32,085 nucleotides of DNA from Fidelibacterota bacterium. GTDB lineage: Bacteria > Fidelibacterota > Marinisomatia > Marinisomatales > SCKK01. Both the position numbers and the translations under genes were made by a program. A model generated the notes under the pieces. That model made no database searches. It was given only the letters and a program-made list of their open reading frames with translations, and was not told the origin of the DNA. This document shows positions 2,117 to 28,921 of the stretch, piece after piece; positions within the stretch are counted from its first letter, which is position 1, and every line of letters starts with the position of its first letter. The stretch is from NCBI GenBank assembly GCA_004124475.1, contig SCKK01000042.1:1-32085 (forward strand), written 5' to 3'.

Positions 2117-2218
2117 TTGCGAGTTAAAAAATTAGAGTCACCTCATGTGAGTTACAAGTTTAATCCTTGAAAAAAGCTATGGGAAAAACTAACTTCGTGC
2201 CGCTTTGAGCCCGGATGG

Positions 2219-2235
2219 TCCCGATTTAATCGGGA
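2219..2235. repeat. TCCCGAT-type palindromic repeat
   Basis: Perfect dyad TCCCGATT-T-AATCGGGA sitting where the D-loop of a tRNA-Leu copy should be. The same family recurs at 2245-2262, 18342-18357 and inside 23340-23370. Confidence 0.8.
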
Positions 2236-2244
2236 GTAGACGCG

Positions 2245-2262
2245 TCCCGATTAGGATCGGGA
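2245..2262. repeat. TCCCGAT-type palindromic repeat
   Basis: TCCCGAT-TAGG-ATCGGGA, a 7-bp stem with 4-base loop, occupying the position of the anticodon arm in the damaged tRNA-Leu copy. Confidence 0.8.
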
Positions 2263-2333
2263 TCTCCACTAGGGAGTACAGATTAACTATACTGATATCA
2301 ATGTTCTTTGAAAACGCTTTGGAAAAGTTTACT

Positions 2334-2417
2334 GCCCGGATGGCGGAATAGGTAGACGCGCATGGTTCAGGACCATGTCTCCGAAAGGAGGTGCAGGTTC
2401 GATTCCTGTTCCGGGCA
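2334..2417 (+). tRNA. tRNA-Leu (anticodon CAG)
   Basis: 84-nt class II tRNA. Acceptor stem GCCCGGA/TCCGGGC with discriminator A; anticodon stem CATGG/CCATG with loop TTCAGGA, anticodon CAG at 2368-2370. A long variable arm follows (TCTCCGAAAGGAGG), then a T-arm with TTCGATT. The 3' CCA is not encoded. It is preceded by a damaged copy of its own 5' part. Confidence 0.95.
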
Positions 2418-2744
2418 CTTTTGATATGTTTTAACTCCAGCTTTGAAGTAACACGCGGTAGAATTTTTAACATCTCAGAATATTGATATCCGCAGAACAG
2501 GTATCTTTATGGATTTTTGGAAGATTAAATCTAATAGCGATGTTCTACATATCAACTGAGTTATTATAGGATTTTATAACTGGTTAATTGGTTATTGGTT
2601 ATTAGTGATTGGTGACAAATATTTTTTACTACTGCATTGCTCACCATTCACTACTCACCAGTCTACCAGTAATCAACGATAACATGCGATAAATCAGTCT
2701 ATAATTAGAACAAAGCCAATCTAATCTATTGAACTCTACGGATC
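2418..2744. other. Non-coding stretch after tRNA-Leu(CAG)
   Basis: About 330 bases with no supported gene. The only structure I see is the long imperfect hairpin at 2596-2660, which lies downstream of the DegT gene. Confidence 0.4.
2596..2660. repeat. Imperfect inverted repeat, 20-bp arms
   Basis: Arms 2596-2615 (TGGTTATTAGTGATTGGTGA) and 2641-2660 are complementary at 17 of 20 positions around a 25-base loop. The arms are built from iterated TTAGTGA/TTGGT-like units. It could fold as RNA downstream of the DegT gene, but it has no T-run and is not a standard terminator. Confidence 0.55.
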
Positions 2745-17506: not shown

Positions 17507-17628
17507 GAAACGAAAATTAAGGAAAGGAAAAGGTAATTAAAATACAATGATTCAAAATTGTGCATTACATGTCGTAAACCAAACATGTGAACCAGACCCG
17601 TTAGGTTGAAATATATATATAAAACACG

Positions 17629-17711
17629 CGGAGGTGGAGGGACTCGAACCCCCAAGTCCGTGAGGACGCCGGTTTTCAAGACCGGTGCATTACCAATTAT
17701 GCTACACCTCC
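17629..17711 (-). tRNA. tRNA-Ser (anticodon UGA)
   Basis: 83 nt. Acceptor GGAGGTG/CACCTCC with discriminator G, the serine identity base. Anticodon stem CCGGT/ACCGG, loop CTTGAAA, anticodon TGA at 17676-17678. The long variable arm (GTCC-TCAC-GGAC) marks class II. CCA is not encoded. The D-arm (GCATAATTGGTAATGC) is of a shape more usual in class I tRNAs. Confidence 0.93.
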
Positions 17712-17733: not shown

Positions 17734-17819
17734 CTCGCTGGTTTTTCCGAAGGATCCTGTCCACAGGACGCTGAGCGTGGACAAGACCAGTGCATTAAAC
17801 TAGACTCTGCTACGCCTCC
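17734..17819 (-). pseudogene. 5' half of a tRNA-Ser(UGA)-like gene with a 36-bp anticodon-loop insert
   Basis: Sense strand: acceptor GGAGGCG; D-arm GCA...TGC; anticodon stem CTGGT; loop bases CTTG; 36-bp insert; AAA; ACCAG; CG. The insert falls between the second and third anticodon bases. The anticodon stem differs from that of the intact gene by a paired C-G to T-A change, so the parent was once a folding tRNA rather than a random copy. Variable arm, T-arm and 3' acceptor are missing. The intact gene begins 108 bases downstream. Confidence 0.8.
17746..17781. repeat. 36-bp palindromic insert in a tRNA anticodon loop
   Basis: Insert with complementary ends (TCC...GGA) and an inner GTCC-TGT-GGAC hairpin. 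Fifteen bases (ACAGGATCCTTCGGA on the minus strand) recur at 23471-23485. Removing exactly 36 bases restores the loop CTTG-AAA. Confidence 0.8.
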
Positions 17820-17824
17820 CAGTC

Positions 17825-17888
17825 CTGCGGAGAGAGAGGGATTCCCCGCCTGACAGACTGACGTCAGTCAGTCGGGCTGGGAACCCTC
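17825..17888 (-). repeat. Direct repeat of the tRNA-Ser(GCU) 3' end, interrupted by a palindrome
   Basis: 17825-17844 plus 17881-17888 are identical, 28/28 bases, to 18142-18169 at the 3' end of tRNA-Ser(GCU). Together the two copies bracket the GIY-YIG pseudogene (253 bp between them), like the ends of a small element integrated into a tRNA 3' end. Confidence 0.88.
17845..17880. repeat. 36-bp palindromic insert in a tRNA T-loop sequence
   Basis: Core GACTGACGTCAGTC (17856-17869) is a perfect 14-bp palindrome, with CCCGCC/GGGCTGG outer arms. It splits TTC/GAA of the T-loop in the duplicated tRNA-Ser(GCU) end with no base lost and no target duplication. It also supplies the last codons and stop of the GIY-YIG frame. 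Confidence 0.85.
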
Positions 17889-18142
17889 CTTCCTTTCCTC
17901 AATCTGTTTATCAATAAATTTCTTCCCAGCAGCAGATTTCAAATAGCGTTCCCTTTTTCTCGCTTCACTCCTTTCACCTACATACTCCATGTAAATAATT
18001 TCAAATGGGCGATAGTTCTTAGTAGCTCTTACTTTTCCAGCATTGTGATTCTTAAGACGGTCTGATGAATTCAGCTCATTCCTTTATATCGAAATATACC
18101 GCGTTGACTTTGAATTACGTAAACGTACCAACCTTTTTTCAC
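17868..18142 (-). pseudogene. GIY-YIG nuclease (UPF0213/COG2827-like), frameshifted
   Basis: GTG at 18140-18142, two bases after the tRNA-Ser(GCU) discriminator, opens KKGWYVYVIQSQRGIFRYKGMS and then hits TGA at 18071-18073. After a frame change near 18069-18075 the frame continues SSDRLKNHNAGKVRATKNYR, PFEIIYMEY and EARKRERYLKSAAGKKFID. This is the catalytic Arg/Glu half of a small GIY-YIG nuclease. The first motif is WYVYV, and the YIG motif reads YKG. Stop TGA 17868-17870 is contributed by the inserted palindrome. The family cuts DNA. Position between two copies of a tRNA end suggests it was cargo or driver of a mini-element. It is now probably dead. Confidence 0.85.
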
Positions 18143-18144
18143 TG

Positions 18145-18235
18145 CGGAGAGAGAGGGATTCGAACCCTCGAAGGAGCTTTTAACCCCTTACTCGCTTAGC
18201 AGGCGAGCGCCTTCAGCCAGCTCGGCCACCTCTCC
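18145..18235 (-). tRNA. tRNA-Ser (anticodon GCU)
   Basis: 91 nt, class II. Acceptor GGAGAGG/TCTCTCC (one G-U pair), discriminator G, D-arm GCCGAGCTGGCTGAAGGC. Anticodon stem CTCGC/GCGAG with loop CTGCTAA, anticodon GCT. Long variable arm; T-arm GAGGG-TTCGAAT-CCCTC. CCA is not encoded. The GIY-YIG frame begins two bases beyond its 3' end. Confidence 0.95.
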
Positions 18236-24879: not shown

Positions 24880-25142
24880 AAAGAGTTTCTCCCTATTTAC
24901 GTATTTTGTAACTCTTTAGCCTATTTTTCGGAGCGTGGCTTTAGTAAAAGGCTAAGTCCAGAAGATTCGGGATAAGGATCAGATTTAGCTACCATACCGG
25001 CATTTCTGTCCGTTAGCTAACGGATAGCTCATCTCCCTAAGAATGAAAATTTAAGATTTATTTCTTCATTCTTCATTCTATTTCCCTGCACCTGCGCTTT
25101 AGCCTAAATAGTTACCGTATTTTTAATGATGACTACCCATTG
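24880..25142. other. Non-coding stretch between TPR gene and tRNA-Leu(GAG)
   Basis: About 260 bases with no supported gene. It holds the perfect palindrome at 25009-25024 next to TAGCTCATCTCCC, which weakly resembles the start of a tRNA on the minus strand (GGGAGAT-GAGCT). The pairing 3' acceptor is not found, so I do not call a tRNA remnant. Confidence 0.4.
25009..25024. repeat. Perfect 16-bp palindrome TCCGTTAGCTAACGGA
   Basis: Fully self-complementary. Relative of 18321-18336; it lies 119 bases beyond the 3' end of tRNA-Leu(GAG). Confidence 0.75.
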
Positions 25143-25226
25143 TGCCGAAGGCGGGACTCGAACCCGCACAAGATTTCTCTCACTGCCCCCTCAAGACAGC
25201 GTGTCTACCAGTTCCACCACTTCGGC
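25143..25226 (-). tRNA. tRNA-Leu (anticodon GAG)
   Basis: 84-nt class II tRNA. Acceptor GCCGAAG/CTTCGGC, discriminator A; anticodon stem CTGTC/GGCAG with loop TTGAGGG, anticodon GAG. Long variable arm; T-arm GCGGG-TTCGAGT-CCCGC. No encoded CCA. It begins 5 bases after the secG stop on the same strand, as leuU does after secG in E. coli. Confidence 0.95.
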
Positions 25227-28460: not shown

Positions 28461-28921
28461 TCAACACATAGGTTTTGGAAAACTTAATTGACCAAATTCT
28501 TTCCCATAAAACCCTTTTTTAGTGGATAATCCGTAGATGGATTTCCTATGAATATATGAGTCTTCTGCAATTTAGTTGTACAGTTTTCACTCCACAAAGA
28601 TCAAGCGAATATAAATCAACAGATTTCATTATATCACTATTTATAAAGGCTTAGGTAATGTGTTTACCAACTCGATAGAAAGGAAATGAACACATATTTA
28701 ATACTTCTTATTTATTCGCAATTAGTTTCAAAGGTCACTATACGCTAACCTTTTACGTGTTAATACATTACGTGAAGAAACCAACCAATTGTTTCCAACT
28801 AAATTTCAGAAGATCTGAATATTCCCTGCCCGCCCACCGGCGGACGGGCCGTCAGGCAGAGCAGACCTGGATCTTGGTTCTTTATTCACCTACCCATAAC
28901 AGAGGTAATACAATCAGTTCA
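28461..28921. other. Non-coding stretch between comF and hutI
   Basis: About 460 AT-rich bases upstream of comF and downstream of hutI. No gene or tRNA is supported. The one clear structure is the GC-rich palindrome at 28824-28860. A comF promoter probably lies in the first part but I could not place it with confidence. Confidence 0.4.
28824..28860. repeat. GC-rich CCTGCC-type palindrome
   Basis: Outer CTGCC/GGCAG and inner GCCC/GGGC around ACCGGCGG, standing out in AT-rich DNA about 60 bases after the hutI stop. Same family as 12659-12680 and 30165-30196. Confidence 0.7.

Follow-up and report, generated by a model that had tools for sequence, protein, structure and literature searches.

A probable one-gene GIY-YIG mobile element on a bacterial tRNA-Ser(GCU) gene and its tRNA-linked relatives

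The window analysed here, positions 1 to 32,085 of contig SCKK01000042.1 of a Fidelibacterota bacterium (GCA_004124475.1, genome G000 below), contains a small broken nuclease gene lying between two copies of the 3' end of a tRNA-Ser(GCU) gene. This arrangement raised the question of whether the locus records an integration at a tRNA 3' end, a chance repeat, or one member of a family of elements that live on tRNA genes.

The tRNA-Ser(GCU) locus

Read along the minus strand, the locus consists of tRNA-Ser(GCU), the GIY-YIG remnant, a split 3' piece, a dead Ser(UGA)-like 5' half with its palindrome, and tRNA-Ser(UGA):

18144-18235, minus strand: intact tRNA-Ser(GCU), carrier of the element (ARAGORN)
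17868-18142, minus strand: frameshifted GIY-YIG (UPF0213-type) nuclease gene (PF01541 match, two frames, intact orthologue L051)
17825-17889, minus strand: dead 3' piece of tRNA-Ser(GCU), T-arm to 3' end, interrupted by a palindrome
17845-17880, minus strand: 36-bp palindrome in the T-loop (TTC^GA) of the dead Ser(GCU) piece, 18 nt before the tRNA end
17782-17819, minus strand: dead 5' half, tRNA-Ser(UGA)-like, through the anticodon region (local alignment)
17759-17782, minus strand: palindrome after the dead tRNA-Ser(UGA)-like 5' half
17628-17711, minus strand: intact tRNA-Ser(UGA) (ARAGORN)

A sequence-only reading of this stretch had reported a perfect 28-bp repeat (20 + 8 bp) of the tRNA-Ser(GCU) 3' end, which was confirmed in the sequence and with the ARAGORN tRNA call. 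Positions 18142-18161 are duplicated perfectly at 17825-17844 and positions 18162-18169 (GAACCCTC) at 17881-17888, so that the T-arm and 3' end are copied perfectly, with the 36-bp palindrome splitting the copy; on the minus strand, 17889-17825 is composed of GGAGGGTTC, the palindrome and GAATCCCTCTCTCTCCGCAG. By our own arithmetic, the chance expectation for an exact 20-bp repeat within 1.3 kb is about 1e-6. A chance repeat was ruled out on the perfect repeat together with the match of dead pieces elsewhere to their own tRNA. Palindromes of one family occupy the T-loop position in the window, L001 and L051. The dead 5' half at 17782-17819 is probably a leftover of a 5'-type element (defined below) of tRNA-Ser(UGA).

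The nuclease gene has a GTG start immediately 3' of tRNA-Ser(GCU), its remnant running from 18142. It matched PF01541 with E 8e-7 and 31.1 bits (G000:C59:17922-18065), and its N-terminal part lies in a different frame. The earlier call of a frameshifted GIY-YIG nuclease was upheld by this match, by the two frames and by the intact copy in sister genome G001 (L051), an orthologous gene whose frame is uninterrupted and terminates in that palindrome-bearing piece as well. The L051 locus has a second nuclease ORF, which is missing from the window. Between the repeats, here and in the relatives, the nuclease ORF stands alone, as the same reading had proposed in speaking of a nuclease in place of an integrase. 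The window ORF enters the repeat and stops at 17868-17870, within the palindrome of the dead 3' piece. The nuclease frames of the window (17868-17889) and of L051 read into the dead tRNA piece with the tail ...EGSQPD, and database proteins of this tRNA-linked family may carry tRNA-derived tails.

A nuclease family adjoining tRNA and tmRNA genes

Five intact relatives scored 52.9-60.0 bits against PF01541 (cut-off 22.6). Among 26 relatives, residues Y5, Y16, G18 and E62 were invariant and R26 was conserved in at least 90%; the window copy is frameshifted. The nearest and sole sequence relative with a solved structure was UPF0213 protein BH0048, and an NCBIfam search returned nothing above threshold, only sub-threshold matches to group I intron endonucleases. 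The coding sequence is conserved, with a median Ka/Ks of 0.14 over 31 measurable close pairs.

For the census, the window's own genome and 100 relatives of the same order (101 genomes) were searched with PF01541; UvrC was left out, and a locus was counted only if its contig left room around it. Loci were taken as the best-ranked matches by nuclease score and were not chosen by position. Among the matches listed, 62 of 84 small GIY-YIG loci lay within ~340 bp of a tRNA or tmRNA gene, and no tRNA was found near the other 22 loci with room on the contig. The tRNA was upstream in 51 and downstream in 11 of the 62 linked loci, and on the same strand in all of them (opposite strand, 0). As a control, only 2 of 30 Y1_Tnp transposase loci in the same genomes had any tRNA within ~1.5 kb. 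The targets were Ser, Leu(CAG), Gly(GCC), Ala(GGC), Pro, Met, Val(CAC), Asp, Asn, Glu and tmRNA. In many genomes, the start of intact relatives falls 1-15 bp past a tRNA gene, and a piece of the same tRNA follows the nuclease gene in relatives, both of which had been proposed as checks of the original observation.

In these genomes, one further clade of small GIY-YIG genes was never tRNA-linked (L005, L011, L017, L020, L021, L026, L038, L061, L067, L073, L081, L088, L090, L091 and L096-L098). L005 is flanked by repeats and may be another mobile type.

The nuclease alone was also scanned against contigs, with a consensus protein as query because alignments A1 and A2 were too diverse; this returned 42 loci, 4 of them repeating loci already in the census; 32 of the 42 adjoined a tRNA or tmRNA on the same strand. 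The hosts belonged to Balneolota, Bacteroidota, Ignavibacteriota, Chlorobiota, Patescibacteria-type lineages, Omnitrophota and Lentisphaerota/Sumerlaeota (tmRNA). When 12 of these hosts were searched genome-wide, 17 of 29 loci were linked, none on the opposite strand (partly the same loci). Nuclease genes were also seen downstream of tmRNA genes (L037, L083, L133, L135, L136 and L202), with tmRNA 3'-end pieces repeated at L037 and L083.

On the nuclease tree, the target amino acid required 26 changes against 56 +/- 2 when shuffled, and a Gly lineage was common to Neomarinimicrobiota and Balneolota; the target tRNA tracks nuclease lineages. The tree rests on a short alignment (127 rows, 71 columns) with many weak forks, and orthologous sites inflate the target-tracking statistic.

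Split, emptied and replaced tRNA genes

Two arrangements were recognised, in units of ~300-450 bp. In the 3'-type, an intact tRNA is followed by the nuclease and a dead 3' piece; in the mirror 5'-type, seen at tRNA-Met, Ser(GGA) and Pro, a dead 5' piece is followed by the nuclease and an intact tRNA. The nuclease was co-directional with the tRNA in every linked unit. When dead pieces were compared with tRNAs, the locus's own tRNA was a better match than all 25 other-isotype tRNAs in 49 of 66 locus-tRNA pairs, and an additional dead piece lay beyond the intact tRNA in 24 of 83 cases. Some dead pieces begin in the D or anticodon arm. Tandem units occur in Fodinibius (L105, L003, L043 and L106), their outer copies being truncated. 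The geometry of integration at a tRNA 3' end, which had been suggested for the window locus, is not what the family displays; instead the tRNA gene is split, with the nuclease on either side of an intact tRNA.

Hairpins with a stem of at least 6 were present in 29 of 43 gaps inside dead pieces, against 19% of random windows. They sit in the T-loop, exactly 18 nt before the tRNA end (Leu/Ser), or replace the anticodon arm (Pro, Ala and others), and in dead tRNA copies palindromes stand exactly in place of the D, anticodon and T arms; their origin is unexplained. The commonest, TCCCGA...TCGGGA, has 184 dispersed copies in G000, against 1 for a control pattern, and occurs in the window at 2220, 2246 and 30175. 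Another palindromic repeat, at 28825-28859, is 94% identical to the T-loop insert of a dead tRNA-Leu piece in L068. For an origin as RAYT/REP repeats the evidence was mixed: G000 had seven Y1_Tnp genes, but only 29 of 101 relatives had any, and Y1_Tnp was missing from genomes with linked nucleases such as G024, G033, G034 and G037, so that it does not seem to account for the palindromes. The palindromes may protect the dead piece from cutting, make its recombination with the intact tRNA rarer or mark places where cuts were repaired; there are no data on any of these.

A second site of the same kind lies elsewhere in the window:

2209-2275, plus strand: dead upstream copy of tRNA-Leu(CAG), composed of GCCCGGATGG, palindrome, GTAGACGCG, palindrome
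2334-2418, plus strand: intact tRNA-Leu(CAG), a nuclease-free site of the same kind (ARAGORN; L068 comparison)
2419-2433, plus strand: scar TTTTGATATGTTTTA, comprising linker, start codon and the opening bases of the nuclease gene that was lost (against L068)

In the dead copy, palindromes replace the D arm (after GCCCGGATGG) and the anticodon arm (after GTAGACGCG). The site is filled in the sister genome (L068), with flanks 95-97% identical. From this comparison, the window tRNA-Leu(CAG) has probably lost its nuclease, because the dead upstream copy and the downstream ATGTTTTA scar remain; a virgin empty site was rejected on the same dead copy and start-codon scar, which mark an emptied one. 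The tRNA-Leu(GAG) at 25142-25226 has neither dead copies nor a nuclease nearby and is untouched. G001 has a further tRNA-Leu(CAG) nuclease locus (L046, G001:C190), which resembles that of another genus (L053) and the window at only 65%, and is possibly on a contaminant contig.

Empty or emptied sites, the remaining check, were found in relatives. Between G000 and G001, Leu(CAG) is occupied in G001 and Val(CAC) in G000; Ser(GGA) is occupied in G001 relative to G000, where the downstream flank differs; at Gly(GCC) both are occupied, with an upstream flank 90% identical and nucleases matching at just 43/71. G001 is listed with 4% contamination; the occupancy differences were judged on contigs whose flanks are 91-97% identical, and not on its gene count. 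In another family, the tRNA-Pro site is empty in G061, holds only a dead 5' piece in G064 and G088, and holds nuclease sequence with a dead 3' piece in G045 and G008. Occupied and unoccupied alleles in close relatives, a criterion for homing endonucleases, were therefore met with at the Leu(CAG), Val(CAC) and Pro(CGG) sites, and the family is very probably mobile.

At two loci or more, the intact tRNA is a substitute, and what lies dead is the native gene. At Val(CAC) of G045, the dead 3' piece with its flank agrees with G061, a relative that is empty there, at 141/141 bases, and the dead 5' piece agrees as well; it is the native gene that the dead halves represent (31/31 to the empty relative). 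The intact tRNA there is 78% identical to the native gene, has its own matching acceptor stem and is preceded by a promoter-like TTGACC...TATGTT (by eye). At Leu(CAG) of G045, the dead upstream copy matches the G008 tRNA at 64/67 vs 52/67 for the local intact tRNA. From these comparisons we conclude that the resident tRNA dies while a working one is carried or installed by the element, as observed at two loci of one genome only. The criterion of a foreign working gene beside a dead native one was met at both; the window Ser locus was not compared.

Explanations and known systems

The reading that we prefer, at a probability of roughly 75% as a whole, is that the window Ser(GCU) locus represents a one-gene mobile element in a decayed state, one member of a family of stand-alone UPF0213/COG2827-type GIY-YIG homing endonuclease elements, each living on one tRNA or tmRNA gene. 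The earlier inference of a homing-like element using tRNA is supported by the relatives; homing and cleavage remain inferred, there being no cleavage data. The nuclease would cut tRNA genes lacking the element, either in the T-loop or in the anticodon arm, which are the palindrome positions, and repair from an element-bearing copy would install the nuclease and a working tRNA sequence, the cell surviving through restored tRNA function. The split native halves would then decay. In the 3'-type, the tRNA promoter probably drives the nuclease too, co-transcription being inferred. Nucleases would in turn decay and be lost, leaving scars as in the window. It counts against this explanation that the intact element tRNA keeps a normal T-arm, so that avoidance of self-cutting is unexplained and resistance of the rescue tRNA is an inference. 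The 22 unlinked loci of the census and the clade without any tRNA linkage also speak against it.

Other readings fit parts of the evidence. Co-directionality with the tRNA in all linked cases and conserved coding would also be expected of a host gene for tRNA processing or repair, co-transcribed with tRNAs and accompanied by incidental duplications of tRNA pieces, but patchy occupancy in sister species, frameshifted and tandem copies, a different tRNA per lineage, same-tRNA dead pieces and foreign replacement tRNAs make this improbable. We also consider it unlikely that the GIY-YIG gene is a passenger without nuclease activity on tRNA-flanking segments spread by homologous recombination or unequal crossing-over; tRNA genes do supply conserved homology and the near-identical tandem copies (L105, L003) resemble unequal crossing-over, yet it would leave unexplained why this nuclease family is involved, why its coding is conserved and why lineages are target-specific. 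The remnant of an integrase-borne island or prophage, with the tRNA 3' end as attachment site, would account for the direct repeat, but can practically be set aside: no recombinase lies between the repeats in the window or relatives, the whole unit is ~300-450 bp, mirror-image 5' versions and dead pieces starting in the D or anticodon arm exist, and there are nearly no phage-borne relatives. A phage origin was rejected when tblastn against 50,697 phage records gave only two weak Staphylococcus phage hits.

Integrases use tRNA and tmRNA genes as attachment sites, the gene end being restored after insertion. The homing-type elements preferred here share these target genes and the restored gene end, but have no integrase, a tiny unit and dead pieces that are not exact attachment-site repeats, and they occur in either orientation to the tRNA. 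Synthetic cleave-and-rescue gene drives combine a nuclease against a needed gene with a working substitute copy. More tentatively, and at slightly less than even odds, the element could be a natural cleave-and-rescue parasite, whose nuclease destroys a specific tRNA or tmRNA gene while the linked divergent tRNA rescues the cell; the element would thereby become indispensable and resident tRNAs would be replaced across species, with palindrome-bearing dead tRNAs as fossils. Unlike the synthetic drives, it would be natural, tiny and bacterial, and resistance of the substitute tRNA to cutting has not been shown.

SegB of phages T4/T6 is a free-standing GIY-YIG homing endonuclease in a phage tRNA cluster (PMC13096335; review PMC2988022), which cuts within tRNA genes at RAWTSGAAC and forms active-site-dependent tandem tRNA-nuclease arrays (PMC13096335). 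In our own reading, RAWTSGAAC is the complement of the tRNA T-arm; in the absence of cleavage data, this motif and the palindrome positions are no more than suggestive of a cut site. SegB resembles the present elements in a GIY-YIG gene adjoining tRNA genes and in tandem tRNA-nuclease arrays, its cutting being inside tRNA genes. It differs in that it resides in phage genomes and not bacterial chromosomes and involves many tRNA isotypes, whereas here each lineage keeps to one tRNA, and neither split tRNAs with palindrome-bearing dead pieces nor a replacement tRNA have been described for it. Fungal mitochondrial endonuclease elements replace gene 3' ends (Allomyces atp6; Glomus atp6, atp9, cox2 and nad3), likewise bringing a foreign working gene end with an endonuclease ORF and leaving a dead native end downstream that matches close relatives, but they affect organelle protein genes, with LAGLIDADG in the atp6 case (PMC3630166). 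Here the targets are bacterial tRNA genes, a mirror layout also occurs and the protein is a 70-120 aa GIY-YIG.

No published description of a chromosomal tRNA-nuclease system was found in our literature search, which did not cover subscription journals or preprints. The family is widespread and real, and apparently undescribed. Cultured hosts (Fodinibius sediminis, Pedobacter punctiformis) make it open to experiment. If the proposed explanation is true, it would add a very small and common class of selfish elements to bacterial chromosomes, explain many small GIY-YIG genes of unknown role adjoining tRNAs, open a way for foreign tRNA genes to take the place of resident ones, and offer a natural precedent for cleave-and-rescue drives.
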